Shown one piece after another: positions 1,021 to 14,765 of a stretch of DNA of 64,000 nt. Both the position numbers and the translations under genes were made by a program. The stretch's first letter is position 1; each line of letters opens with the position of its first letter. The DNA comes from Micromonospora inositola (lineage in GTDB: Bacteria > Actinomycetota > Actinomycetes > Mycobacteriales > Micromonosporaceae): the NCBI RefSeq assembly GCF_900090285.1, contig NZ_LT607754.1, positions 248,001 to 312,000 on the forward strand, read 5' to 3'. Below the pieces are notes generated by a model. That model was not told the origin of the DNA. It ran no database searches and saw only the letters and a program-made list of their open reading frames with translations.

Positions 1021-1803
1021 ATGGGCTACACCTGGATCTCGTTGACCACCGACTACGGTTTCGCCGACGGTTTCGTGGCGGCGTGCCACGGCGTGATCGC
1101 CAGAACCGCGCCGGCGGTACGGGTGATCGACGTGACCCACCTGGTGCCGCCGGCCGACGTCCGCCGGGGCGCGGCGGTGCTCGCCCAGACCGTCCCGTAC
1201 CTGCCGGCGGGGGTGCACGTCGCGGTGGTCGACCCGGGGGTCGGTACGGCCCGGCGTGGGATCGCCCTGGCCAGCCCGGGCGGGCTGCTGGTCGGGCCGG
1301 ACAACGGACTGCTGCCCGACGCCGCCGAAGCCCTCGGTGGGGTCACCGCGGCGGTCGAGCTGACCAACCCGGCGTGGCTGGCTCCGGAGGTGTCCCGCAC
1401 CTTCCACGGCCGGGATGTATTCGCGCCGGTCGCGGCCCGGCTCGCGTCCGGCGCACCGCTGGGCGAGGCCGGCCCCGCGGTGGACCCGGAGGCGCTGGTC
1501 CGGTTGCCGGCGCCGGTGGTCCGCCCGACCGCCGACGGGTTCGCCGCCGAGGTGCTCACCGTGGACCACTTCGGCAATGTCCAGCTCGCCGCCCCGGCCG
1601 CCCTGCTGGACGGGCTGCCCGCCCGGGTCCGGGTGGCCGGCCGGCAGGCGGCGCGCGGGCGCACCTTCGCCGACGCGCCGGTCGGCGCGCTGGTGGTGTA
1701 CGTCGACTCCGCCGGCCTGGTGGCGGTCGCGGTCAACAACGGCCGGGCCGCCGATCTGCTCGCCGCCCGCCCCGGGGACGTGCTGTCGGTGACCGGCACC
1801 TGA
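1021..1803 (+). CDS. S-adenosyl-L-methionine hydroxide adenosyltransferase (SAM hydrolase, DUF62)
   Basis: This 260-residue protein belongs to the SAM hydroxide adenosyltransferase/fluorinase superfamily, which splits SAM to adenosine and methionine using water (hydroxide) as nucleophile. N-terminal TTDYGFADGFV binds the ribose and methionine end. The family's Asp-Arg-His triad can be matched to D71 (VVDPGVG), R78 (TARRG) and H129 (TFHGRDVFAP). VGPDNG and the C-terminal DHFGN and VNNGRAADLL motifs are also present. The length is normal. It stands alone, followed by a CPCC protein gene 44 bases on. The physiological reason for SAM hydrolysis in actinomycetes is unclear. Nothing here suggests the halogenating (fluorinase/chlorinase) branch. 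Confidence 0.9.
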   Translation: MGYTWISLTTDYGFADGFVAACHGVIARTAPAVRVIDVTHLVPPADVRRGAAVLAQTVPYLPAGVHVAVVDPGVGTARRGIALASPGGLLVGPDNGLLPDAAEALGGVTAAVELTNPAWLAPEVSRTFHGRDVFAPVAARLASGAPLGEAGPAVDPEALVRLPAPVVRPTADGFAAEVLTVDHFGNVQLAAPAALLDGLPARVRVAGRQAARGRTFADAPVGALVVYVDSAGLVAVAVNNGRAADLLAARPGDVLSVTGT

Positions 1804-1847
1804 GATCGCGTGCCCACCGCCGGCGTCGGGTGTGGAATGCTGCTCCG

Positions 1848-2090
1848 GTGGGTGAGCACTGGGTTCCGGTCGCCTGTCCGTGTTGCGCGTCCCGGACCGG
1901 CGGGGGCACCTGCCCGGTGTGCTTCTGGACCGACGACGGCCAGTCCGACGCGGACGTTGACGTCGTGCGGGAGGGGCCCAACGGTGACCTGAGCCTCGCC
2001 CACGCCCGGCTGAACTTCGCCGTCTACGGCGCCAGCCACCCGCGCTACCAGGACATGGTCCGCACGGCCCGCCCCGACGAGCGGCCCTGA
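1848..2090 (+). CDS. Small CPCC-family cysteine-rich protein
   Basis: An 80-residue protein begins at GTG 1848; a start further upstream in this frame would run through the SAM hydrolase gene. The N-terminus has VACPCC followed by TCPVCFWTDD, a four-cysteine zinc-knuckle arrangement, and then HARLNFAVYGASHPRYQDMVR. This is the pattern of the cysteine-rich CPCC family (PF14206-like), whose function is unknown. Zinc binding is inferred from the CPCC/CPVC spacing. It could be co-transcribed with the SAM hydrolase gene because the gap is only 44 bases. Confidence 0.75.
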   Translation: MGEHWVPVACPCCASRTGGGTCPVCFWTDDGQSDADVDVVREGPNGDLSLAHARLNFAVYGASHPRYQDMVRTARPDERP

Positions 2091-2187
2091 CCGAAACGCC
2101 CACCGGCCCGCTGGCAGGGCGTGTCAGGGAGCCTGACCGGATCGAGCCGTGGCGAACGCATCCGCTGCGGCGAGGGACAATGGGCAG

Positions 2188-3186
2188 GTGCCCGAAGGCG
2201 ACACCGTCTGGAACACCGCCCGCGTCCTGCAGCGGGCGCTGGCCGGCGCCCGGCTCACCGGCTCCGACTTCCGGGTGCCGCAGCTCGCCGCGACCGACCT
2301 GACCGGCTGGACCGTCCGCGAGTCGGCCAGCCGCGGCAAGCACCTGCTGCTCCGGCTCACCGCGGCCGGCGCGTCCAGCGCTGACGGCACGGCCTCGGCC
2401 GGGCAGCCCGGCGGCGGGCGGGACTGGACGCTGCACTCGCACCTGCGGATGGACGGCGCCTGGCGGGCGTACGCGCCGGGCGAGCGGTGGGCGGCCCGGC
2501 CGGCGCACCTGATCCGGGTGGTGCTCCGCTCCGCCGGGGCGGTCGCGGTCGGGTACCACCTGCACGAGCTGGCGTTGGTCCCGACCGACCAGGAGGAGTC
2601 GCTGGTCGGTCACCTCGGGCCGGACCTGCTCGGCCCGGACTGGGACCCGGCCGAGGCGGTCCGCCGGCTGGCCGCGCAGCCGGACGCCACCATCGGCGAG
2701 GCGCTGCTGGACCGGCGCAACGTGGCCGGGGTCGGTAGCAAATTGGTCACAGTCGGGCCGAGTGACTCCGATCTTGTGCGGCGCGGGTTCTGGGTTGAGG
2801 GCGAAGCGGTCCGCCGGCTCGCGGCACAGCCCGACCGGCTGATCGGAGAGGCCCTGCTCGATCAACGAAACCTGGCGGGCCTGGGGACCATCTACACCGC
2901 CGAGGTGCTGTTCCTTGCCGGGGTCAGCACGCTCACCACCGTGGGTCGGGTCGGGGACCTCCGAAGAGTGGTTCGGCTCGCCCGGCGACTCCTGTGGGCG
3001 AACCGTGGGAGAACCGCTCAGGTGACAACCGGCGACACGCGCCGAGGCCGGGGTCTTTGGGTCTATGGACGGCAAGGGCAGCCGTGCCGACGATGCGGGA
3101 CGGTGATCATCCGGGGTCAGCACGGCTCAGAGCCGCTTGCCCGACTGGCCTACTGGTGCCCCTCATGTCAGCCGTCGAGCGAGTAG
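2188..3186 (+). CDS. Fpg/Nei-family DNA glycosylase, chimeric, with a duplicated H2TH segment
   Basis: GTG 2188 gives VPEGDTVW, so the catalytic Pro-Glu sits directly after the start, as in Nei2-type glycosylases that excise oxidised bases and nick the abasic site. The C-terminus keeps a zinc finger (CRRC ... CPSC) and the VYGRQGQPC approach to it. The middle is odd. AVRRLAAQPD plus IGEALLD(R/Q)RN(V/L)AG(V/L)G occurs twice, at nucleotides 2656 and 2806, exactly 150 bp (50 codons) apart and in frame. The protein is therefore 332 residues, about 50 longer than usual. The first copy runs into SKLVTVG instead of the normal helix. The second runs on to IYTAEVLFLAGVS, the usual continuation. DNA from about 2745 onward is less GC-rich. 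It looks like recombination between two diverged nei genes. Whether the enzyme is active is open. Confidence 0.8.
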   Translation: MPEGDTVWNTARVLQRALAGARLTGSDFRVPQLAATDLTGWTVRESASRGKHLLLRLTAAGASSADGTASAGQPGGGRDWTLHSHLRMDGAWRAYAPGERWAARPAHLIRVVLRSAGAVAVGYHLHELALVPTDQEESLVGHLGPDLLGPDWDPAEAVRRLAAQPDATIGEALLDRRNVAGVGSKLVTVGPSDSDLVRRGFWVEGEAVRRLAAQPDRLIGEALLDQRNLAGLGTIYTAEVLFLAGVSTLTTVGRVGDLRRVVRLARRLLWANRGRTAQVTTGDTRRGRGLWVYGRQGQPCRRCGTVIIRGQHGSEPLARLAYWCPSCQPSSE

Positions 3187-3189
3187 TAC

Positions 3190-3540
3190 GGCAGATCGCC
3201 TACCCGGAGGGTGTTCAGCCGTGGGACGCCAGGGCGGGCACTCCGCTCGCCCTCACCAGACTGCTGTCGGCTACGGCGGCGACGATTCGCGGGTCCGCGC
3301 CCGCGGCCTCGTCTTCGCTGCCCCGCGAGTTCTTCCGCCTCCACGATCTCCGCGTCGAGCGCACGGCGCTTCCCGCTGACGGCCAGAGCGACACTCTCCA
3401 CTTCGGCGGCGCGGCGGGGGACATGTTGGCGCGCGGGCGGCCCGTCAGGGGACGCTGGCACAGCTCGCAGAGCACGATGCCGGAGCACAGGTAGGCGTCG
3501 GACCCCGGGCGGCCCGACGTAGAACTTCCACGAACCGGTC
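3190..3540 (-). pseudogene. Possible decayed serine-recombinase C-terminal fragment
   Basis: The 500-base gap before the next gene has no convincing intact CDS. On the minus strand one frame reads SDAYLCSGIVLCELCQRPLTG, like the start of the zinc beta-ribbon of large serine recombinases (LLSGLxxCGxCGxPLTG). No second cysteine pair follows, and another frame then carries LDAEIVEAEELAG. Stops and frame changes prevent a complete protein. Base composition is similar to the neighbouring foreign-looking nei half. This is a weak call based on one motif. It may be chance. The rest of the gap up to 3675 shows nothing else. Confidence 0.25.
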
Positions 3541-3686
3541 AAGATCGCCGAGATACGGATGATTGGGTACTTCCCTCCCCCGGCGTCCGCGTCGCATGCT
3601 GCGGTGGAGTGCTCACCGATCGTCAGCAGGGCGTCCGCCCGTCACGCCGCAGTGACGGCCGTCGCGTCCCGATCCGGGGGAGAGCC

Positions 3687-6600
3687 ATGGCCCTGTTCCG
3701 CAGACTGCGGCCGAGCTGGGCGGACCGCGCGGTCCGCGCCGGCGAGGACCACACCCCGACCGTGCCCGCCGCCCGGACCGGGGAGCCGGGCGACCCCGCG
3801 CCGGCCAGCCTCGACCCGGCCGCCGTGCCGCGCTGCTTCGGTCCGGTGCCCAACTTCGCCGGCAGCCCGCTGCCGGTCGTGGACCGGCACGGCCGGGCGG
3901 TGCCCGGCACCGGCATCCGCAAGTTCGTCGACGCGCTTCCCCTGCCCGGGCCGCTGGGCCGCAACGGGTTGGGGGCCCACCTGCCGGTCGCGGTGCCGGA
4001 CACCATCACCTGGCCGGGCTGCGACTACTACGAGATCGGTTTGCAGGAGTACACCCAGCGGCTGCACCGGGACCTGCCGGCCACCCGGCTGCGCGGCTAC
4101 CGCCAACTCAACCTCGGCACCGACCCGTCCGGGCACAACACGGTGGCCCCGCCGGACCGCCCCTGGCACCTCGGACCGCTGATCCGGGCCCGGCGCGGCC
4201 GGCCGGTACGGATCAAGTTCATCAACCTGCTCCCGACCGGCCGGGCCGGGGAGCTCTTCCTGCCGGTCGACGAGACGGTCGACGGGGCGGGCGTGGGTCC
4301 GCTGGACGGTCCGGCGCCGTACCCGCAGAACCGGGCGGTCCCGCACCTGGCCGGCGCGCAGACGGCCTGGATCAGCGCGGGCAACCCGTGGCGGTGGGTC
4401 ACCCCGGCGGGCGAGATCACCCCGTACCCGATCGGGGTCGGGTTGACGCCGGTGCCGGACATGCCGCCGCCGGGCGCGGGCGCCACCACGCTCTACTTCC
4501 CGAACGAGCAGAGCGGCCGGCTGATGTGGCTGCACGACAACACCGTCGGGCTGTGCCGGCTCACCGTCTACTCCGGACAGCTGGCGCTCTATCTGCTCAC
4601 CGACCCGGCGGAGGAGCGGCTCGTCGCCGACGGCGTGCTCCCGGCCGACCAGCTGCCGCTGGTGATCCAGGACAGGACCTTCGTGCCGGACGACGACCAG
4701 CTCGCCGCCCAGGACCCGACCTGGGACCGGGACCGCTGGGGCACCAAGGGCAACCTGTGGCATCCGCACGTCTACCAGCCCCGGCAGAACCCGTACCGCA
4801 CCGCCGGGACGAACCCGACCGGGCGCTGGGACTACGGGCCGTGGACCCACGACCCCGACGGCGGCGGCAGCCCGTGGGTCGCCCCGGTGCCGAACCCGCA
4901 CCACGACCCGGTCGTCGAGCCGGACGAGCCGCCGCTGACCCCGGGCGTGCCGCACCCATCGGCCGTCCCCGCGGCGTACGGGGACATCATGCTGGTCAAC
5001 GGCGCGGCCTACCCGTACCTGACCGTCGAGCCGAGGGCGTACCGGTTCCGGATCCTCAACGCCTGCGCCGACCGCAGCCTCAACCTCCAGCTCTACCGGG
5101 CCCGCTCGGACGGTCCGCTGTGGCCGGACGACGGCGGCCCGGTCGACCCGGACGCCGGGGAGGTGCCGATGGTCGAGGCGGTCCGGGCGGCGGACCGCCC
5201 GGCGTCCTGGCCCACCGACGGGCGGGACGGTGGGGTGCCGGATCCCCGGGCGGCCGGCCCGGAGCTGGCCCAGATCGGCAACGAGTGCGGCCTGCTGCCC
5301 GCTCCCGTGGTGCTGGCCAACCGGCCGGTGGGCTACCGGTACGACCGGCAGGACCCGACCGTGCTCAACGTGGACGGCCACGCGCTGCTGCTCGCCCCCG
5401 GCGAGCGGGCCGACGTGGTGGTGGACTTCTCCGCCGTGCCCCCCGGCGCCACGCTGATTCTCTACAACGACTGCCCCGCCCCGCTGCCCCGCTTCGACCC
5501 CAGGTACGACCACCACAGCGACGCCCCGGACCGCACCGCCGTCGGCGGGCTCCCGCCCACCCGGCCCGGGTACGGCCCGAACACGAGGACGCTGCTCCAG
5601 ATCCGGGTGGCCGGCGCCCCGGCACCCCGGTACGACCTCGCCCGGCTCGCCGAGCGCCTCCCCGGCGCGTACGCCGCCAGCCAGCGCCCGCCCATCGTGC
5701 CGCAACCGGCGTACGACCCGGCGTTCGGCACCCGGACGCCCCGGGAGACGCTGGTGCCGGCGCGCGCCACCTCGGTCAGCTTCACCCCGCCGGGCGCCGC
5801 CGCCCCGGTCACCCTCCCGCTCGCCGTGAAGACGGTCGGGCAGGTCTTCGAGCCGCGGCACGGCCGCGCGGTGGGCCGGCTCGGCGTCGGCCACCCGCAG
5901 GCCGGCCCGCTCACCCCGGCCACCCTGCCGCTCGGCCCCGTCGACCCGGCGACCGAGGTGCTCTTCGCGGCCGACCCGACCGTTCCGGTGGGCGCCCCGG
6001 CCGACGGCACCCAGCTCTGGCGGATCGTCGGCGACGCCCCGCAGACCCATCCGGTGCACGTGGAGGGCTGCGACGTGCAGCTGGTCAACCGGGTCGGCTG
6101 GGACGGCACCGTCCGCCCGCCGGACGCCAACGAGCTGGGCTGGAAGGAGACCGTCCGGGTCAATCCCCGGGAGGACGTGATCGTGGCGCTGCGCCCGGTG
6201 CCGCCCACCCTGCCGTTCAAGATCGGCGACAGCGTACGGCTGCTCGATCCCACCCGGCCGGCCGGCGCCCGGCTCGACGCCTCGCCGATCAGCCCGCTCG
6301 ACGGGCGGCCCGCCACGGTGGTGAACCAGCTGGTCAACCTCGGCTGGGAGTACCGCTGGCACACCCGGGCCGCGGGCCTGCGGGACCAGGGCATGAGCCG
6401 GCCGCTGGTGCTGCGGGTCTCCCCCAGGGCCCCGACCGGGCTGACCGCCACCCCGGCGCCGGGCTCGGCGACCGCGCTGCCGGCGATCGCGCTGGCCTGG
6501 ACCGGCAACGGCAGTCGACCGCCGGCCACCAGCCACCTGCTGCAACGGGCGACCGACGCCACCTTCACCGCGGGTCTGACCGAGATCACCGTGGCTGCCA

Positions 6601-7295
6601 CCGCCACCCGGTACACCGACGCCACGGTCACCCCGGGGCTGACCTACCACTACCGGATCCGGGCGGAGAACGCGGTGAGCTGCTCGGCCTGGTCGAACAG
6701 CGTCCCGGCGTCGGTGCAGCTCACCGCGCCGGCCAGGCTGAGCGCGGCGGTCCCGCCGGCCGCGCCGCTGCGGGTGGCGCTGCGCTGGGCCAACCGCTCG
6801 TTCGCCACCGGGGTCGACGTGCAGCGGGCCACCAACCCGACGTTCACCAGCGGGCCGGGCACCACCGCCATCGCGGTCGGCGACCACCACGTCGACCCGG
6901 CCGTCGCCCCGGACACCACGTACTACTACCGGGTCCGCACCACCTACCTCGGCGCGGCGTCACCCTGGTCCCCGGTCGCCACCGTGACCACCCCGCCCCG
7001 GCCCGGGACACCGGGCACGGTGAGCGCCACCGCCACCGCCCCCACGCCGGACACCGCGACCGTGATCCTGAGCTGGTGGGCCAGCACCCCCGCCGGGCCG
7101 GGGTCCGGGTTCGTGGTGCAGCGGGCGCTCGACCCGGCGTTCGGCCAGGAGCTGGCCACCTTCACCGTCACCGGCCGGGGCTTCACCAACACCGGGCTGG
7201 CCCGGGGCATCACCTACCACTACCGGATCCGGTCGTTCAACGTCGTGGGCACCTCCGCCTGGACCGGCCCGGTCCCGGTCACCACCCCGGGGTGA
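3687..7295 (+). CDS. Multicopper-oxidase-like protein without copper ligands, with three FnIII-like repeats
   Basis: This 1202-residue protein starts at ATG 3687 behind GGGGGAGAG. Residues about 50-910 follow the cupredoxin layout of large actinobacterial multicopper oxidases: TAWISAGNPW, YFPNEQSGRLM, LTVYSGQLALYLL, IQDRTFVPD, MLVNGAAYPYLTVEPR, FRILNACADRSLNLQL, NRVGWDGTVRPPDANE, WKETVRVNP. All four copper-site motifs have changed. HLHG is HLAG (H220), HDH is HDN (283-285), HPxHxH is HPVHVEG (788-794), and the HCHxxxHE motif is replaced by WHTRAAGLRDQG (H892 region). Residues about 915-1202 are three FnIII-like repeats (LTYHYRIRAEN, TYYYRVRTTY, ITYHYRIRSFN). No signal peptide is visible. Oxidase activity is unlikely. 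A structural or binding role is inferred. Confidence 0.85.
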   Translation: MALFRRLRPSWADRAVRAGEDHTPTVPAARTGEPGDPAPASLDPAAVPRCFGPVPNFAGSPLPVVDRHGRAVPGTGIRKFVDALPLPGPLGRNGLGAHLPVAVPDTITWPGCDYYEIGLQEYTQRLHRDLPATRLRGYRQLNLGTDPSGHNTVAPPDRPWHLGPLIRARRGRPVRIKFINLLPTGRAGELFLPVDETVDGAGVGPLDGPAPYPQNRAVPHLAGAQTAWISAGNPWRWVTPAGEITPYPIGVGLTPVPDMPPPGAGATTLYFPNEQSGRLMWLHDNTVGLCRLTVYSGQLALYLLTDPAEERLVADGVLPADQLPLVIQDRTFVPDDDQLAAQDPTWDRDRWGTKGNLWHPHVYQPRQNPYRTAGTNPTGRWDYGPWTHDPDGGGSPWVAPVPNPHHDPVVEPDEPPLTPGVPHPSAVPAAYGDIMLVNGAAYPYLTVEPRAYRFRILNACADRSLNLQLYRARSDGPLWPDDGGPVDPDAGEVPMVEAVRAADRPASWPTDGRDGGVPDPRAAGPELAQIGNECGLLPAPVVLANRPVGYRYDRQDPTVLNVDGHALLLAPGERADVVVDFSAVPPGATLILYNDCPAPLPRFDPRYDHHSDAPDRTAVGGLPPTRPGYGPNTRTLLQIRVAGAPAPRYDLARLAERLPGAYAASQRPPIVPQPAYDPAFGTRTPRETLVPARATSVSFTPPGAAAPVTLPLAVKTVGQVFEPRHGRAVGRLGVGHPQAGPLTPATLPLGPVDPATEVLFAADPTVPVGAPADGTQLWRIVGDAPQTHPVHVEGCDVQLVNRVGWDGTVRPPDANELGWKETVRVNPREDVIVALRPVPPTLPFKIGDSVRLLDPTRPAGARLDASPISPLDGRPATVVNQLVNLGWEYRWHTRAAGLRDQGMSRPLVLRVSPRAPTGLTATPAPGSATALPAIALAWTGNGSRPPATSHLLQRATDATFTAGLTEITVAATATRYTDATVTPGLTYHYRIRAENAVSCSAWSNSVPASVQLTAPARLSAAVPPAAPLRVALRWANRSFATGVDVQRATNPTFTSGPGTTAIAVGDHHVDPAVAPDTTYYYRVRTTYLGAASPWSPVATVTTPPRPGTPGTVSATATAPTPDTATVILSWWASTPAGPGSGFVVQRALDPAFGQELATFTVTGRGFTNTGLARGITYHYRIRSFNVVGTSAWTGPVPVTTPG

Positions 7296-7313
7296 GCCGC
7301 CCGGAGGCCCGGC

Positions 7314-8093
7314 TCAGGGGGTGCGCAGGGGCGTGCCGACGGTCCGCAGCTCGGCGAGCGCGGCGGCCACCCCGTGCAGCAGGTCGGTCGCCTCGGTGAG
7401 CCGGGCGGCCGCCGGGTGCTCGGTGGTCGGCCGGGCGTCCTCGGCGACGTAGCCGGCCGCCGCCACGACCAGCCGTTCGTACGCGGACACCCCGGCGTCC
7501 AGCTGGGCGACCAGGGTGCCGTGCGCCTCGGCCAGCGGCTCCCGGGCCTCGGCCGGGGCGAGCCGCAGCGCGCGTTCCACGCTGGCCACCCGCCCGGCCA
7601 GGTCCCGCAGCGAGCCGTCGGCGGCGGCCGCCTCCCGCACGGCCGGCTCGGCCAGCCCGGTCAACCGGCCGGTCATCCCGGCCAGGGTCAGCGCGGCCCG
7701 GTCCAGGCGGGCCCAGGCTTCGGCCGCGGTGGTGCCGCGCAGCGCCAGCCGGGAGCGCACCCGGCGCACCTCGGCCAGCACGCCGGGGCCGACTGGCAGC
7801 CGCTCGACGGCGGCGAGCAGCCGGGCCCGGGAACGGGCGGCGGCCTCGGCCGGGTCGAGCGCGGGAGGCGCCGGCACGGCGGCGAGCGCCCGCAGGTCGA
7901 TCCAGCGCCAGGCGGCGACGGCGATCGCGCTGCCGGCCGCGCCGGCCCAGGCCGCGTCCGGCAGGCCGAGACCGGCGTACGGGGTCAGCACGGCGGCGGC
8001 GCCGCCGAGCCCACCGGCCAGTACGCTCCACCGCCGGGCGGAGCGTCGCAACCGCCGCAGCCGGCGGAAGTGTCGCGCTCGCTCGTCTGCCAT
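7314..8093 (-). CDS. pspM: Phage-shock/envelope-stress membrane protein PspM-like
   Basis: A 259-residue protein lies directly downstream of pspA. An Arg-rich cytoplasmic N-terminus (residues 1-22) is followed by two hydrophobic segments at about 23-42 and 47-63, then a long Ala/Leu/Arg-rich helical region. In mycobacteria the order clgR-pspA-pspM is conserved, and PspM anchors PspA at the membrane. The same order is present here, so the name rests mainly on position and topology, not on sequence motifs. The gap to pspA is about 25 bases, consistent with one transcript. Its end faces the convergent multicopper-oxidase-like gene with an 18-base gap. Confidence 0.65.
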   Translation of the reverse strand: MADERARHFRRLRRLRRSARRWSVLAGGLGGAAAVLTPYAGLGLPDAAWAGAAGSAIAVAAWRWIDLRALAAVPAPPALDPAEAAARSRARLLAAVERLPVGPGVLAEVRRVRSRLALRGTTAAEAWARLDRAALTLAGMTGRLTGLAEPAVREAAAADGSLRDLAGRVASVERALRLAPAEAREPLAEAHGTLVAQLDAGVSAYERLVVAAAGYVAEDARPTTEHPAAARLTEATDLLHGVAAALAELRTVGTPLRTP

Positions 8094-8117
8094 CCCCGCC
8101 TCCTCGCCCCGTCCGGG

Positions 8118-8990
8118 TCAGCCCGCGGTGGCGCTGTCCCCGGTGCCGCGTTCCCGGCTCATGGTGGCCCGGATCTCGTCGAGCCGGGCGGCGGCCGCCG
8201 GGTCGGTGGCCGGCGCGCTCTCGCCGGCCTGCGCCACCGCGGGCCGCTCCTGCCGGCCGGTGAGCTGCTCGCCGGCCATGCTCGACCGGATCTGCTCCAG
8301 TCTGGCCGACCCGGCCGAGTCGAGGGTCGCCTTCTGGATCTCGAGCATCCGGCCCTCGACCGAGTTGCCCGCCAGCTCGGCCCGGCCCATCGCGGTGGCG
8401 TACCGGCGCTCGATCCGGTCCCGCACCTCGTTCAGCGACGGGGTGCTGCCGGGGGCGGTCAGCGAGGACATCGACTCCAGCGAGCGGGCCACGCTCTCCT
8501 GCATCTTGGCCTGCTCGAGCTGGCTGAGCAGCTTGGTCCGCTCGGCCAGCTTCTGCTGGAGGATCATCGAGTTGTTCTCCACCGCCTTGCGGGCCTGGGC
8601 GGCCGCGCCGAGCGCCTGGTCGTGCAGCGTCTTCAGGTCCTCGGTGGCCTGCTCGGCGGAGACCAGCTGGGTGGCCAGCAGCTGGGCGGACTGCTCGTAC
8701 CGGCCGGCCTCGGCCTCGTCACCCTTGGCCCGGGCCTGGTCGGAGAGGACCAGGGCCTGCCGGGCGTTGGCCTGGAGCTGCTCGACCTCGGACATCTGCC
8801 GGGAGAGCTTCATCTCGAGCTGGCGCTGGTTGCCGATCACGGCGGCCGCCTGCTGGACCAGCGCCTGGTGCTGCCGCTGGGCCTCCTCGATGGCCTGCTG
8901 GATCTGCACCTTCGGGTCGGCGTGCTCGTCGATCTTCGCGCCGAAGAGCGCCATCAGGTACTTCCAACCCTTGGCGAACGGGTTAGCCAT
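8118..8990 (-). CDS. pspA: PspA/IM30 (ESCRT-III-like) membrane-protecting protein
   Basis: The 290-residue protein starts [20 protein letters not shown], the amphipathic helix that binds stressed membrane. Residues about 25-225 are nearly continuous coiled coil ([19 protein letters not shown] and on). The C-terminal tail is longer than in enterobacterial PspA and contains two similar [13 protein letters not shown] motifs ([19 protein letters not shown] and [17 protein letters not shown]), a small internal repeat. It presumably forms oligomers that stabilise the inner membrane, working with the neighbouring PspM-like protein and under ClgR control, as known for mycobacteria. Confidence 0.92.
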
Positions 8991-9160
8991 CTCCGCGTTG
9001 TCCCCTCAGTAGCGTCGCTCCGCCTCGACCGGGCCGCGCGGCGTGCCTCCATCGTCCCAGCCCGACGCCAGCCCGGCATCAGTCCGGCGAGGGGGCGGTC
9101 GCGCGACCCTGATCAAACCCTACGCGGCGGGGGCCACCCCGGCCACGGTGCGCGCGCGGG

Positions 9161-9601
9161 TCAGGCGGCGCAGACCACGTCCCGCTCCTTGGGGCGAACC
9201 CGGGTGCTGCGCAGCGTGGCCTTGAGCGGCGAGTCCTGGCGGACCTGGACGGCCACCGCGCCGTCGGAGGTGACCTGGCGGACCCCCCGGTTGGTGGCCT
9301 TCCGGACGGCGGCCGCCGGGACCGGCGCCGGCTCGTCGACCACCGGGACCAGCACCCCCGGCATCTGCTCGGCCAGGGCGACGGTGTCGCTGACCTCGCG
9401 GAGCAGCTCGGAGAGGCGGGCGCCGAGCGCGTCGCAGATGGCGGCCAGCAGCTCGCTGGAGGGCTCCTTCTGGCCGCGCTCGATCTCGGAGAGGTAGCCG
9501 AGGCTCACGTTGGCGGCGGAGGAGACCTCGCGCAGGGTGCGCTGCTGCCCCTGCCGGCGCGCCCGCAGTGCGTCACCGATCACGCGGCGTAGCAGGACCA
9601 T
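9161..9601 (-). CDS. clgR: XRE-family regulator ClgR
   Basis: ATG 9601 lies behind GGGGGAGG. The 146-residue product has one Cro/C1 helix-turn-helix at about residues 4-60 ([20 protein letters not shown] followed by ERGQKEPS), identical in layout to ClgR, the activator of Clp protease genes and, in mycobacteria, of pspA. It ends in VVCAA. In Streptomyces ClgR the two terminal alanines are a ClpP degradation signal, so the same feedback is likely. It sits upstream of pspA-pspM on the same strand with a 170-base gap, which leaves room for a separate pspA promoter. Confidence 0.9.
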
Positions 9602-9838
9602 CGCACCTCCCCCTGACGGGACCACCATCTCCGACCCGGCGGGCCGCGCCGGACGCGGCGGGCCGCCCCGGCGCCGACGTCGACCGTCGGAGCCTTCCCG
9701 CAACCGTACCCGTTGACCGTCCCGGCGACATCCCGCCCCGCCCCTCCAATCCAGCCGATCCGCCCGCACCGGTCCCCGGCGGCGGGGTGGGCGGCGTCCA
9801 CGCCGTCGGGCGGGTCGGGTTCCGCACCGCGGCCCGGG

Positions 9839-10393
9839 TCACCGGTGACCCGGGCCCGCCGGGTCGGCGGCCCGGGCCGCGTCGGCCTCGTCGGCGTCGC
9901 GGATCCGCTCGGCCAGCAGCCGCAGCGCCTCGATCACCGCGGCCGAGCGGATGTGGTCCCGGCCGCCGTCCAGGTCGAGCTGCCGCACGTCCGTCCCGGC
10001 CGGGCCGGACACGGCGACATACACCAGGCCGACCGGCTTGCCGTCCTGCGGCTCCGGCCCGGCCACGCCGGTGGTGGCCAGCCCCCAGTCGGCCCCGCAG
10101 CGCCGGCGTCCGCCGTCGGCGAGCGCGACCGCCACGTCCGGATCGACCGGCCCGCGCTCGGCGAGCAGTTTCGCCGGTACACCGGCCAGCTCGGACTTCA
10201 GCTCGGTGGCGTAGACCACCAGGCCGCCCCGGTAGACGCCGCTCACCCCGGCGATCTCCACGACCGAGGCGGAGAGCAGCCCTCCGGTGAGGGATTCGAC
10301 GGTGGCCAGGGTCTCGTGCCGCTCGTGCAGGCTGTGCACCACGCCCGCCGCCGGATTACCGGCGGTCCGCTCGTGCTTCGCGTCCGTCCCCAT
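9839..10393 (-). CDS. cinA: CinA C-terminal-domain protein (nicotinamide-nucleotide amidase)
   Basis: This is a 184-residue stand-alone CinA domain. ATG 10393 was chosen because GGAAAGGAGAG precedes it; a longer frame would run into the palindromic repeat. Motifs are TVESLTGGLLSA, YRGGLVVYATELKSELAGV, LADGGRRRCGADWGLATTGVAGP and PVGLVYVAV. The family deamidates NMN (PncC activity) in the pyridine-nucleotide cycle. Here it lacks the N-terminal MoCF-like domain, as is usual in actinobacteria. It lies between pgsA and clgR, a conserved actinobacterial order. Confidence 0.88.
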   Translation of the reverse strand: MGTDAKHERTAGNPAAGVVHSLHERHETLATVESLTGGLLSASVVEIAGVSGVYRGGLVVYATELKSELAGVPAKLLAERGPVDPDVAVALADGGRRRCGADWGLATTGVAGPEPQDGKPVGLVYVAVSGPAGTDVRQLDLDGGRDHIRSAAVIEALRLLAERIRDADEADAARAADPAGPGHR

Positions 10394-10449
10394 GCCCCGC
10401 TCTCCTTTCCCTCCCAGTCCCGCCCTACTCATCCGCCGCCCCGATTCTT

Positions 10450-10507
10450 TGATCATGAAGTGATCGCCACGACACGCCGGGCCGGCGGACAACAACTTCA
10501 TGATCGC
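10450..10507. repeat. Palindromic intergenic repeat, arms GATCATGAAGT / ACTTCATGATC
   Basis: Between cinA and pgsA the arm GATCATGAAGT (from 10452) is matched by ACTTCATGATC (to 10505), enclosing about 30 bases that include CGACACGCCGG. A related element lies at 48016-48071 with the same ACAACTTCATGATC arm and a CGACACGTCGG core. The shared core and arm suggest a dispersed REP-like element. It may act as a terminator or mRNA end for pgsA. Confidence 0.7.
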
Positions 10508-10555
10508 CGGGGCGCGCCGGGGCCCGGGGGGCCGGGGCCGGGGCCGGGTGGGGGG

Positions 10556-11218
10556 TCAGGGGGTGGAGCGGCGGAGGCGGAGGGCCTGGGCGATGTAGTC
10601 GAAGCCGGTCAGCACCGTGACGATCACGGCGACGCCCATGATCCACGGACCGACGGCGGCCAGGGCGGCGGGCATCGGCCACAGGTACCAGGTGATGGCC
10701 AGGATCTGGAGCGCGGTCTTGATCTTCCCGCCCCGGCTGGCCGCGATCACCCCGTGCCGGATCACCCAGAAGCGCAGCGCGGTGATCCCCAGCTCGCGGG
10801 CGAGGATCACCGCGGTCACCCACCAGGGCAGCAGGTCGTACCAGGAGAGCAGCACCAGGGCCGCCCCGGTGAGCGCCTTGTCGGCGATCGGATCGGCGAC
10901 CTTGCCGACCGAGGTGACGAGCTTGAACCGGCGGGCGATCCAGCCGTCCACCAGGTCGGTCACCGACGCGACGACGAAGATCAGGCAGGCGGTCATCCGC
11001 CAACCGGCCTGGGTCAGGCCCGAGGCGACCACGGTCGCCGCGAAGACCGGGACCAGCGCCAGCCGCAGCGCGGTCAACGCGTTCGCCGCGTTGAGCACCG
11101 GCACCCGGGCCACCACCGTGGACTCCGCTCCGATCATCGCCGCACCCCGCTCCGGCCGCCGTGGCGTCCCTGGCACCCCACCACGTGGCTCCCCCGTTTT
11201 GTCCGGGCCCGTCGTCAC
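10556..11218 (-). CDS. pgsA: CDP-diacylglycerol-glycerol-3-phosphate 3-phosphatidyltransferase
   Basis: PgsA makes phosphatidylglycerol phosphate, the first committed step to phosphatidylglycerol and cardiolipin. The CDP-alcohol phosphatidyltransferase signature is complete: [10 protein letters not shown], then [13 protein letters not shown] (DxxDGxxAR...GxxxDxxxD). Five or so membrane helices follow the [16 protein letters not shown] start. The GTG at 11218 overlaps the rimO stop (GTGA), suggesting translational coupling and a 220-residue protein. An ATG at 11137 (MIGAESTVV) would give a more typical length and cannot be excluded. Confidence 0.9.
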
Positions 11219-12825
11219 CGTGCCGCGCCGGGCGCCGCCGAGATCATCTCATCCGGCACGGCGACCAGGTCGACACCCTCGGTCGCGGTGACCGTGGCCC
11301 GGACCAGGTCACCGGGGCGCAGCGCCGCCAGGTCGACCCCGCCATCGTCCGGCACGACCAGGGTGGTCGAACCGTCGACCTCGGGGGCCTGATGGGCCGC
11401 CCGCCCCTCGACGACGCCGTCGGCGACCGAGTCGACCAGCACCTCGACCGCCGAGCCGATCCGGTCCTCGGCCCGCTGCGAGCAGAGCTCGTCGGCGAGC
11501 GCGCTGAGCTTGTCGTACCGGCGCTTGATGGTGGCGGCCGAGACCTTGCCGGGCAGCCCGGCGGCCTCGGTGCCGTCCTCGTCGCTGTAGTCGAACATGC
11601 CGATGGCGTCGAGCCGCGCCTCGGTCAGGAACCGGACCAGCTCGTCCACGTCGGCCCGGGTCTCCCCGGGGAAGCCGACGATGAAGTTGCTCCGGGCGCC
11701 CGCCGTCGGGGCCAGCTCGCGGGCGCTGGCCAGCAGCTCCAGGAATCGGTCGGTGGAGCCGAAGCGGCGCATCCGGCGCAGCACCGGCTCGCTGGAGTGC
11801 TGGAACGACAGGTCGAAGTAGGGCGCGACACCGGGCGTGGTGGCGATCACCTCGACCAGGCCGGGTCGGGTCTCGGCGGGCTGGAGGTAGCTGGCCCGCA
11901 CCCGGACGATCCCGTCGATCGCGGCGAGCTGCGGAAGCAGCTTCTCCAGCGCCCGCGGGTCGCCCAGGTCCTTGCCGTACGACGTCGAGTTCTCGCTGAC
12001 CAGCACCAGCTCGCGGACGCCGGTCTTGGCCAACCACTCCGCCTCGGCCAGCAGCTCGTCCGGCGTACGCGAGACGAAGGCGCCGCGGAAGGCGGGGATG
12101 GCGCAGAACGCGCAGCGCCGGTCGCAGCCGCTGGCCAGCTTGAGCGAGGCGACCGGGCCGGTGTCGAGGCGGTGCCGCAGCACCTGACGCAGGTGGGCCG
12201 GGGTGTGCTCGTCGGTCTCGGTGACCGCCCGGGTGGGGGTGCCGTGGCCGGGCAGCGAGACGGCCGAGTCGCGCCGGGAGACCGGGGTGAGCGGCAGCAG
12301 CTCGCGCCGGTCGCGCGGGGTGTGCGCGTCGATCGCCTCGCCGGCCACCACGGCGTTCAGCCGGGCGGAGATGTCCGGGTAGTCGTCGAAGCTCAGCACC
12401 GCCTGCGCCTCGGGCAGGCTGTCGGCAAGCTCCCGGCCGTACCGCTCGGCCATGCAGCCGGCGGCCACCACCTTGGCGCCGGTGTCGGCGGCGGCGAGCA
12501 GCGTCTGGATCGAGTCCTGCTTGGCCTTCTCCACGAAGCCGCAGGTGTTGACGACCACCACGTCGGCGCCCTCGCCGTCGGTGGTCACCTGCCAGCCGTC
12601 GGCGTGCAGCCGGGCGGCCAGCTCCTCCGAGTCGACCTCGTTACGGGCGCAGCCCAGGGTCAGCAGGGCGACGCGGCGGCCGTCGGCGGCGGACGACAGC
12701 TCCAGGTCGCGGCGCGGCGCCAGACCGGCCTTCATTCGGTCCGGAGCGCCGCCCAGCGGCGCGGAGGCCGAATTATGGCCGCCAGCCGAGCTGGAGTTGT
12801 CGGAAGGGGAGGTGGCAGACACCAT
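11215..12825 (-). CDS. rimO: Ribosomal protein S12 (aspartate-C3) methylthiotransferase
   Basis: RimO is a radical-SAM enzyme that adds a methylthio group to an aspartate of ribosomal protein S12. The UPF0004 domain ([42 protein letters not shown]) carries the second cluster cysteines. The radical-SAM loop is [11 protein letters not shown] (CxxxCxxC). A TRAM-like RNA-binding domain ends the protein. At 536 residues it has an N-terminal Ser/Gly/Ala-rich extension of about 45 residues before the conserved domain; a start near [10 protein letters not shown] would remove most of it. Its stop overlaps the possible pgsA start. Confidence 0.95.
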
Positions 12826-12946
12826 CCGAGGGTACCGGGCCGGGTCCGGGTCCCCGCCAACGGCGGGCCGCCGGCATCGGCCGACTCACATCCGCCGGCT
12901 GGCGCCCGCCGGCCCGGCCACCGCCGCGCCGGCCCGACCGGCCCGC

Positions 12947-13870
12947 TCAGACCGCCGCCGCACCGACCCGGACCAGCCGGTCGAGCAGGAAGACCTCGGT
13001 GCCGGCCAGGCCGGTCGAGCAGAAGACCGAGATCTCGTCCGCGCCGGTCCGGCCCGGGACCGCCCCGGCCAGCACCGCCCCCAGGTCGCGCAGCCGCCCG
13101 GCGTACGGCTCGACCGCGGCGAGCATCGGCGGGGCGTACGCGGCGGCCTGCGCCGGCGAGTCGGTGACCAGGACGTCGGCGGCGTCCAGCAGGTCGGCGC
13201 CGAACTCGTGCCGGTTGGCCTGCTTGAAGCCGACGGTGTTGACGTGGGTGCCCGGGGCGAGGTCGGCGGCGTCGAGCACCGGGGTGCTGCTGGTGGTGGC
13301 GAGCACCACCAGGTCCCGGCCGGCCACCGCCTCGCGGGCGGACCCCACCGCCCGGGCCGGCACCCCCAGCTCGGCCCGGACCCGGGCGGCGAACGCCTCC
13401 CGCCGGGCCGCCGACCGGCTGTGCACGGTGACCTTGCGCAGCGGGCGCACCGCGGCGGCGGCCCACACCTGCGTCCACGCCTGGCGGCCGGAGCCGACCA
13501 CGCCGAGGGTGGCCGCGTCGGGGCGGGCGAGGGCGTCCACGGCCACGCCGCCCAGTCCCCCGGTCCGCCGGGAGCCCAGCTCCTCACCGACCGCGATCGC
13601 CCGTACCGCCCCGGTCCGCGCGTCGTGCAGCACGACCAGCTGCCCGCTCTCCGGGTGCCCGAAGGTGTCGTACGACCGGAAGCCGTACCACTCCCCGGTC
13701 AGGTGGCCGGCGGTGAGCACCATCCGGCCGCCGCCGAGCGGCGCGCTCGCCCGGGGCGGGGCGACCAGCCGACCGGCGTACGCGGCCAGCAGGGCGTCCC
13801 GCATCGCGACGACGGTGACCGTGGCGTCCAGGGTGGCGGCGACGTCCTCGTCGGAGAAGAGCAGCGTCAT
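12947..13870 (-). CDS. Ornithine cyclodeaminase / mu-crystallin family protein
   Basis: The 307-residue protein (ATG 13870) begins LLFSDEDVAATLD, then has a Rossmann NAD-binding motif LGVVGSGRQAWTQVWAAAAV, HSRSAARREAFAARV, VVLATTSSTPVLDAADLAPG and GTHVNTVGFKQANRHEF. These match the ornithine cyclodeaminase/mu-crystallin/alanine dehydrogenase group. The exact substrate cannot be read from sequence; family members act on ornithine, alanine or imines in siderophore and amino-acid pathways. It is a lone gene, divergent from the riboswitch-controlled exporter. Confidence 0.85.
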   Translation of the reverse strand: MTLLFSDEDVAATLDATVTVVAMRDALLAAYAGRLVAPPRASAPLGGGRMVLTAGHLTGEWYGFRSYDTFGHPESGQLVVLHDARTGAVRAIAVGEELGSRRTGGLGGVAVDALARPDAATLGVVGSGRQAWTQVWAAAAVRPLRKVTVHSRSAARREAFAARVRAELGVPARAVGSAREAVAGRDLVVLATTSSTPVLDAADLAPGTHVNTVGFKQANRHEFGADLLDAADVLVTDSPAQAAAYAPPMLAAVEPYAGRLRDLGAVLAGAVPGRTGADEISVFCSTGLAGTEVFLLDRLVRVGAAAV

Positions 13871-13995
13871 GACCCCATCCTGCAACCTGAAGTTAAGTTG
13901 AGATCCACCGGTGGTGGGGTACCTCACCGCCGCCGTGCCCGGCCGGTGCTAACGTCGGCTGCGGCGGCACCGCCGGCGCACCAACCGCCGAGCCG

Positions 13996-14042
13996 CCCCG
14001 GACGAGTCGTGGGCGTACCCGGTCAGGCCAAGACGCCCCTGC
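13996..14042 (+). promoter_or_regulatory. Guanidine-III riboswitch (ykkC-III)
   Basis: The leader contains CCCCGGACGAG, then GGGCGTACCCGGTCAGGCCA and AGACGCCCCTGC. This matches the short, highly conserved pseudoknot of the ykkC-III class: CCGGACGAG, GTACCCGGTCAGG and CAAGACG in order with a complementary GGGCG/CGCCC pair. It lies about 60 bases before an SMR exporter of the type these riboswitches control, and free guanidine would be expected to turn expression on. The match is by eye to the remembered consensus; the gene context is strong support. Confidence 0.88.
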
Positions 14043-14101
14043 GTGACCACTCCGACTCGTCCCGGCCCCGGCGGCCGGGCCCGCCCGCAGAGGTGACTGC
14101 C

Positions 14102-14416
14102 ATGGCCTGGATCGTGCTGGTGCTCTCCGGACTCCTCGAGACCGCGTGGGCGATCTCCCTCGACCGCAGCGCGGGCTTCAGCCGCCCCCTCCCCTCCGCC
14201 GTCTTCGCCGTCACCCTGGTGCTGAGCATGGGCGGCCTGGCGTACGCGCTGCGCGAGATCCCGGTCGGCACCGGCTATGCGGTCTGGGTCGGCATCGGCG
14301 CGGTGGGCACCGCCCTGGTCGGCATGCTCGCCCTGCACGAGCCGGCCAGCCTCCCCCGGATCGTCTGCCTGCTCCTGGTCGTGGCCGGCGTCGTGGGCCT
14401 GAAGGTCTTTCACTGA
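14102..14416 (+). CDS. gdx: SMR-family guanidinium exporter (Gdx/SugE type)
   Basis: A 104-residue protein has four membrane helices. The first carries the essential glutamate (LSGLLETAWAISLDRS, E14). Helix-2/3 motifs IPVGTGYAVWVGIGAVGTA are those of the SugE/Gdx branch of small multidrug resistance proteins, which works as a dual-topology dimer exchanging guanidinium for protons. AGAGGTG precedes ATG 14102. The guanidine-III riboswitch just upstream supports a guanidinium rather than a general quaternary-ammonium substrate. A single gene is present, consistent with a homodimer. Confidence 0.92.
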   Translation: MAWIVLVLSGLLETAWAISLDRSAGFSRPLPSAVFAVTLVLSMGGLAYALREIPVGTGYAVWVGIGAVGTALVGMLALHEPASLPRIVCLLLVVAGVVGLKVFH

Positions 14417-14519
14417 CCGGTACCACCCCCGCCGGGGCGTATCGCACCGGATGCGTACCGCGAGCGCGGACTGGGTAGAGACCGGTCACCCACCGAAGGG
14501 CCTACTCACGGAGGACACC

Positions 14520-14765
14520 ATGGCAGACATTCACGCCACCGCCCGCCCGCGCAGCGGCGCCGCGCGGATCTGCACCATCCTGGGTTTCGTCTTCGCCGTC
14601 ATCGCGGTGTTCTTCCTGCCGCCGTTGTTCGGCCTGGCCGGTCTGATCCTCGGCATCGTCGGCGCGGTCCTCGGCGACAAGCCGCTGGGCTGGTACGCCG
14701 CTGGCGCGAGCGTGGTCGGCGCGATCCTCGGCATGATCATCGGCGCCGCGCTGATAAACTCCTGA
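14520..14765 (+). CDS. Small two-helix Gly/Ala-rich membrane protein
   Basis: An 81-residue protein follows a clear GGAGG ribosome-binding site five bases before ATG 14520. After a polar N-terminus it has two long hydrophobic segments (ICTILGFVFAVIAVFFLPPL and GWYAAGASVVGAILGMIIGA). The layout resembles small DUF4190-type proteins. No function can be assigned. It lies 100 bases after the exporter gene and ends at a strong terminator. Confidence 0.75.
   Translation: MADIHATARPRSGAARICTILGFVFAVIAVFFLPPLFGLAGLILGIVGAVLGDKPLGWYAAGASVVGAILGMIIGAALINS

Follow-up and report, generated by a model that had tools for sequence, protein, structure and literature searches.

What does a multicopper oxidase (MCO) still do once many of its copper ligands have been lost? 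The question is raised by a gene in a 64,000-nucleotide stretch of Micromonospora inositola DNA (contig NZ_LT607754.1, positions 248,001 to 312,000 of the forward strand; hereafter the window, whose own numbering is used for coordinates), which encodes a giant MCO homologue carrying fibronectin type III (FnIII)-like repeats. An earlier note on this DNA had read its copper motifs as replaced and had argued for a selected, non-oxidase role such as binding or scaffolding instead of decay. We consider it likely that the product is a catalytically dead MCO of CotA-like fold, with a giant body plan and three FnIII-like domains, that serves as a copper-free binding or scaffold protein. The gene, the MCO body and the copper-site positions on which this reading turns are as follows, with equivalents given in CotA numbering.

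3687..7295, + strand: giant MCO homologue, predicted to be copper-less, 1202 amino acids (aa), ATG at 3687 and stop codon at 7293-7295 (sequence matches, alignment, MCO model compared with CotA)
4014..6422, + strand: MCO (cupredoxin) body, residues about 110-912 (alignment to intact MCOs, MCO model compared with CotA)
4344..4355, + strand: HLAG, residues 220-223; H105-equivalent kept (H220), H107-equivalent lost (A222) (CotA match, alignment)
4377..4379, + strand: Ala231, equivalent of CotA Asp116; Ala in 41/41 family rows, Asp in 5/5 intact MCOs
4533..4541, + strand: HDN, residues 283-285; H153-equivalent kept (H283), H155-equivalent lost (N285) (CotA match, alignment)
6048..6068, + strand: HPVHVEG, residues 788-794; H419- and H422-equivalents kept (H788, H791), H424-equivalent lost (E793) (CotA match, alignment)
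6357..6395, + strand: WHTRAAGLRDQGM, gapless against WHCHxxxHExxxM and holding the motif WHTRAAG (residues 891-897); H892 and M903 kept (alignment)

The gene coordinates, the 1202 codons and the four motif positions given in the earlier note were exact. When the window protein was aligned with five intact MCOs (from Streptomyces atratus, S. clavuligerus, Deinococcus ficus and Haloprofundus, together with the giant MCO L052 described below), all of which carry the full set of 12 copper-ligand residues, six ligands were found in place (H220, H283, H788, H791, H892 and M903, the axial Met) and the lost positions read A222, N285, E793, T893, R894 and L898. Counted motif by motif, all four are indeed replaced, as the earlier note stated, but six of the 12 ligand residues remain. 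In the last motif the type-1 Cys has become Thr893, the H493- and H497-equivalents have become Arg894 and Leu898, and the equivalent of Glu498, like Asp116 a second-shell acid, is Arg899, a position that reads Arg in 39/39 rows of the family alignment. In the portion of PMC2944330 that deals with these acidic residues, CotA is reported to channel protons through Glu498 and to be severely impaired when Thr or Leu stands in that place; that the Asp116 residue matters is concluded there from mutants of its counterparts in CueO and Fet3p, and the authors doubt proton transfer by Asp116 itself.

Relatives were collected by scanning six exact peptide seeds over 84,980 species genomes, which returned 47 loci; since the seeds were drawn from one protein, more distant members would be missed. 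Forty-six of these loci belong to Micromonospora, Verrucosispora, Salinispora or a 'Micromonosporaceae bacterium', with best-segment identities of 70-93%, and the 47th (L047) is an ordinary MCO in a Nostoc metagenome-assembled genome. Ligand columns and substitution rates were read from an alignment of 41 rows (the window protein and 40 loci) that leaves out L047, three cut loci (L004, L011 and L036), two with an odd start (L012, which matches only from residue 70, and L022, from residue 41) and one with runs of N (L034). The 39 full rows that remain without the cut L040 and L044 were used for ligand counts and pairwise rates and, together with two intact giants, for a parsimony tree.

Among rows with a letter at the position, the ancestral residue persists in 95% for H105, 2% for H107, 90% for H153, 2% for H155, 69% for H419, 51% for H422, 0% for H424, 31% for H491, 0% for C492, 0% for H493, 36% for H497 and 85% for M502. 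Complete rows retain seven ligands in three cases, six in three, five in 18, four in nine, three in three and two in three. The type-1 Cys occurs in none of the 39, which leaves no type-1 His-Cys-His set, and every one of them has at most four of the eight trinuclear-site His. Mean retention over the 12 ligand columns is 38.5%, compared with 83% (median 100%) over the 82 non-ligand columns that are identical in the five intact MCOs, three of which sit in the N-terminal tail (Mann-Whitney p = 1.3e-5); 63 of the 82 are kept in more than 90% of family rows. Ligand columns are also more variable within the family (entropy 1.19 versus a mean of 0.59 for other core columns, p = 0.0008) and took more parsimony steps with the two giants as outgroup (5.2 versus 3.6, p = 0.02), and the ligand strings change clade by clade along the tree. 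The ligands were removed and many of the leftover ones then drifted, while the framework of the fold stayed in place. Compensating histidines at shifted positions would, according to the earlier note, have refuted its reading: in the window protein no non-ligand His lies within five residues of a lost ligand, and of the 41 family rows four have one at position 225 and one has one at position 890, so no compensating His is conserved.

The leftover histidines could in principle form a new mono- or dinuclear metal site, or a small-ligand site, with other chemistry. At least one His survives in every motif of the window protein, HPVHVEG having two, and some of the cavity has been conserved, with His at 220 in 39/41 rows, His at 283 in 37/41 and Asn at 285 in 40/41, so that these positions are 90-98% conserved in the family. 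Elsewhere, however, His is found at 892 in 12/39 rows, at 791 in 20/39 and at 788 in 27/39, position 793 reads D, E, A or G, and the ligand strings differ between clades; because several of the retained His vary in this way, no complete new metal site is conserved, and a remodeled site appears unlikely.

In 41/46 loci the gene is spanned by a stop-free frame that closes with a stop codon, and in the remaining five the frame runs off the contig; as the frames were chosen as stop-free stretches, the evidence lies in their full length. The ratio of nonsynonymous to synonymous substitution rates (dN/dS, Nei-Gojobori) over 741 pairs of the 39 sequences has a median of 0.34 (range 0.11-0.51), and medians of 0.54 for the N-terminal 105 residues, 0.34 for the MCO body and 0.28 for the FnIII part, all of them rough values since GC-rich codon use biases dS. 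Given open frames and purifying selection, a decaying pseudogene was rejected. The dN/dS comparison that the earlier note had proposed among close relatives came out in favor of a selected non-oxidase role over decay, as did the lack of a conserved compensating His and the conserved neighbors and leader described below.

Constraint is unevenly spread. In a count over 47 rows (the window protein and 46 loci, of which five run past a contig end and some have their start set wrongly), invariant columns make up 60% of the 101-150 stretch and 16-18% of the 701-800 region. Together with the lower dN/dS of the FnIII part and the excess variation of ligand columns over other core columns, the scarcity of invariant columns at 701-800 would suit an MCO part that is a slowly decaying passenger, with selection acting only on the FnIII array or on the N-terminal cupredoxin part. 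Such a passenger is hard to reconcile with the 63 well-kept non-ligand columns, the 60% of invariant columns at 101-150 and frames that are open over their full length, and we regard it as quite improbable. An oxidase that works with shifted or non-canonical ligands, toward which the six ligands left in the window protein and an axial Met in 33/39 rows might point, is very improbable given the missing type-1 Cys, the lack of a conserved compensating His and the replaced second-shell acids, and a canonical oxidase was rejected on the ligand losses (type-1 Cys 0/39, at most 4/8 trinuclear His).

The assignment to the MCO family was borne out by both sequence and model. The best sequence matches in the PDB were CotA laccases (E = 3.7e-36 for the window protein, 3.6e-42 for the family profile), and the top entry in both searches was 4a66, titled as an Asp116-to-Ala mutant of CotA; the family carries Ala at the site mutated there. 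Pfam recognized Cu-oxidase_2 (residues 764-837) and two stretches of fn3 above cut-offs in the whole protein. An AlphaFold model of the 813-residue MCO part (m3746ac950bc3; mean pLDDT 58, pTM 0.67), of weak to moderate quality, matched CotA best among solved structures in Foldseek (E = 7e-35, TM normalized to CotA 0.68-0.71, root-mean-square deviation about 8-9.5). The CotA sequence match and this moderate model support an MCO fold of three cupredoxin-like domains. In a larger AlphaFold model (1162 residues, mean pLDDT 50, pTM 0.34) the FnIII region, mostly at pLDDT 70-90, was mostly the sole confident part. Values fell below 50 at three of the four copper motifs in the larger model, and at HDN, WHTRAAG and beside HLAG in the MCO model.

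The FnIII region of the larger model matched solved fragments of three FnIII domains (E = 2e-14, TM to the target no higher than about 0.5), in agreement with the three repeats described in the earlier note. Taken singly, repeats 1 and 3 match Pfam fn3 below the cut-off and repeat 2 gives no match.

6423..6722, + strand: FnIII-like repeat 1, residues about 913-1012 (weak fn3 match, model, solved three-FnIII fragments)
6723..7001, + strand: FnIII-like repeat 2, residues about 1013-1105 (model, solved three-FnIII fragments)
7002..7292, + strand: FnIII repeat 3, residues 1106-1202 (Pfam fn3, model, solved three-FnIII fragments)

By a coarse measure, the highest mean hydropathy of any 15-residue stretch within the first 70 aa, the window protein reaches 0.82 and shows no hydrophobic N-terminal stretch; the 41 family rows stay at or below 1.04, compared with 1.31-2.15 in four intact MCOs. 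CotA itself is not known to carry a classical signal peptide.

Among the intact relatives found, the closest is L052, a protein of 1737 aa encoded on an IMG/VR contig. Over 844 aligned positions the window protein is 42% identical to it; the four ordinary MCOs reach 35-40% over 516-575 positions. The window protein and L052 also share inserts that the ordinary MCOs lack, among them one insertion with 70/76 of its positions filled in L052 versus 9-16 in the ordinary proteins.

4695..4922, + strand: insertion, residues 337-412, common to the giant MCO L052 and mostly missing from four ordinary MCOs (alignment)

L052 carries Ig and fn3 domains. In the portion of PMC5566968 devoted to such proteins, OmpB is reported to contain an FnIII domain and to be associated with the outer membrane, and MofA homologues are predicted to be exported, with cytochrome-like or copper-chaperone genes nearby. 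By analogy with that description of OmpB/MofA and MofC, L052 and the gene that follows it, which bears a CxxCH haem motif by eye and is unnamed by Pfam or NCBIfam, would be a similar pair. The likeness may extend through L052 to the window protein, which has a giant MCO body, inserts common to L052 and FnIII domains, the OmpB/MofA set being defined here by its description in that source; the window gene may thus be of giant-MCO (OmpB/MofA-like) origin. Two differences stand out: the copper motifs are intact in OmpB/MofA and broken in the window protein, and the outer-membrane or exported proteins of that description have a cytochrome or chaperone gene beside them, whereas no cytochrome/MofC-like or copper-chaperone gene was recognized near the window gene (1021-14765). 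The EXXE iron motifs reported for OmpB were rejected as a shared feature, the window protein having a single EXXE, at 411, that is not conserved.

Two IMG/VR contigs, of 56 kb and 185 kb, each encode an intact giant MCO and, in the next gene, a CxxCH motif: L052 at 2833-8046 with its neighbor at 8165-9382, and L054 at 4343-9283 with its neighbor at 9379-10839. The match to L054 begins 342 bases before its listed start and its 5' end may be disturbed; a GIY-YIG endonuclease-like gene was also seen by eye on that contig. The L052 protein matched 125 plasmid records and 68 phage records, and the phage matches fall in its Ig repeats (best 15 of 68). If the contigs are truly viral, these would be phage-borne metal-oxidase-like pairs; host DNA is also possible.

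Copper-free MCO folds have a precedent in FtsP/SufI, the one bacterial case met in the literature covered here. According to the part of PMC2661564 concerned with the crystal structure, SufI keeps 2/12 ligands, shows no metal in its crystals and is a periplasmic substrate of the twin-arginine translocation (Tat) pathway, and its authors favor a scaffold role. As an MCO fold that has lost its copper ligands and for which a scaffold role has been proposed, FtsP/SufI is the best precedent for the window protein, from which it differs in size (chains of about 450 residues versus 1202 aa with FnIII domains) and would also differ in its export through Tat to the envelope, the window family having no hydrophobic N-terminal stretch by the coarse measure above. 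Membership in FtsP was rejected (47 bits with the NCBIfam FtsP equivalog model versus a cut-off of 581), and by sequence the window protein is nearer to CotA (E = 3.7e-36) than to the SufI entry 2uxt (E = 1.7e-7). CotA, the laccase of the Bacillus spore coat, is the solved structure matched best by both the sequence and the MCO model, but it is an active laccase with a full ligand set and without FnIII domains. Literature searches on MCO and FnIII in Micromonospora or Salinispora, on MCO pseudoenzymes and on copper ligands lost in actinobacteria, which cover few subscription papers, returned no title on the window family among the matches listed.

A copper-free, non-exported scaffold is favored because of the SufI precedent and the missing N-terminal hydrophobic stretch. 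By analogy with the role proposed for FtsP/SufI, the cupredoxin body and the FnIII array would offer surfaces to a partner; FnIII arrays are often protein- or glycan-binding modules. Lacking an export signal, the protein would probably be intracellular, or released without a Sec/Tat signal, and a non-exported location could explain why the copper sites are no longer maintained.

Several points weigh against this scaffold reading. Five His and one Met still occupy ligand positions, and with H220, H283 and N285 kept at 90-98% some metal binding may be possible. Bacterial FnIII domains are mostly found on exported proteins, and a coarse hydropathy measure, with an intact minimum of 1.31 and a family maximum of 1.04, is what speaks for a missing export signal. 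The dN/dS of 0.34, with its GC-biased dS, is only moderate, and the drift could reflect a weakly constrained third cupredoxin domain while other parts are kept. The neighbors look housekeeping, and neither a partner nor an operon nor a phenotype hints at a process. A more specific history is doubtful at present: the family could be a second, separately derived copper-free MCO lineage whose ancestor was a giant resembling metal oxidases and which relocated to the cell interior and became a multi-domain scaffold with a clade-conserved regulatory leader, perhaps with a part in the development or the envelope stress of sporulating Micromonospora.

The graded loss of ligands (2-7 of 12 kept) across at least 46 syntenic loci would allow the study of a metalloenzyme fold that was emptied yet retained. 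Family models score these genes as multicopper oxidases, and they should not be counted as oxidases in annotation.

The genes of the window between 1021 and 14765 look like SAM (S-adenosylmethionine) hydrolase, Nei2, PspM, PspA, CinA, PgsA, RimO, a dehydrogenase-like protein and a small membrane protein; Nei2, PspM and PspA were named by a profile library and the remainder by eye. When nine window neighbors were searched against the loci with tblastn, a Nei-like gene was found upstream in 45/46 and a SAM hydrolase-like gene upstream in 42/46, three of the four without it beginning too near the gene. PspA lies downstream in 37/46, and the other nine reach the contig edge first. L012 is the locus without any recognized upstream neighbor, in 7 kb of flank. 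These conserved neighbors make the gene look old, vertically inherited and chromosomal, with no evident operon partner. In a tblastn search of plasmids the window protein matched 50 records, below 60% identity throughout (best 40 of 50), and the four matching records inspected carry the full ligand set (4/4).

In the window pspM sits between the gene and pspA, these two phage-shock genes (7314-8990, - strand) being convergent to the MCO-like gene; a connection with envelope stress is possible. The frame of the Nei2-like DNA glycosylase (2149-3186, + strand) contains, by eye, the internal repeat EAVRRLAAQPDxxIGEALLDxRN twice and aligns with the Nei2 model over three stretches, scoring below the cut-off; it may be a rearranged gene.

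Upstream of the gene, a non-coding leader of about 140 bp (3547-3686, + strand) is conserved. The comparison used 40 of the 47 leaders for block conservation and 25 in a second alignment. In blocks of 20 bases the mean share of the commonest base is 0.72-0.87 from -140 to -1, 0.53-0.61 at -180 to -141 and 0.22-0.32 at -240 to -181; the bases from -280 to -241 (window about 3407-3446) form another conserved patch.

3562..3574, + strand: leader element 1, core TTGGGTANTTCC (conservation upstream of the gene)
3593..3616, + strand: leader element 2, core GCATGCTGCGGTNGANNGCTCAC (conservation upstream of the gene)
3676..3684, + strand: ribosome-binding-site-like GGGGGAGAG before the ATG at 3687 (sequence; largely conserved among the 25 leaders)

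Of 54 loci scanned, a set that includes eight outside the family, 28 have one exact match to each of the two cores, always just upstream of the gene; in the window element 1 recurs at one extra place, 8953, with two mismatches. The leader contains GGGTAC, which we take to resemble the -10 element of SigB-type promoters; such a promoter was rejected, no matching -35 being seen by eye 14-16 bases upstream. A known RNA family was likewise rejected, the best Rfam score of 19.1 bits falling below the cut-off of 44.5 and beyond the conserved part. In L013 and L041 the aligned start codon, at position 7001, reads ATC, so translation must begin at another place, such as the following codon, GTG. At about 3400-3500, partly overlapping the conserved upstream patch, the minus strand reads SDAYLCSGIVLCELCQRP by eye, presumably resembling a recombinase zinc ribbon.

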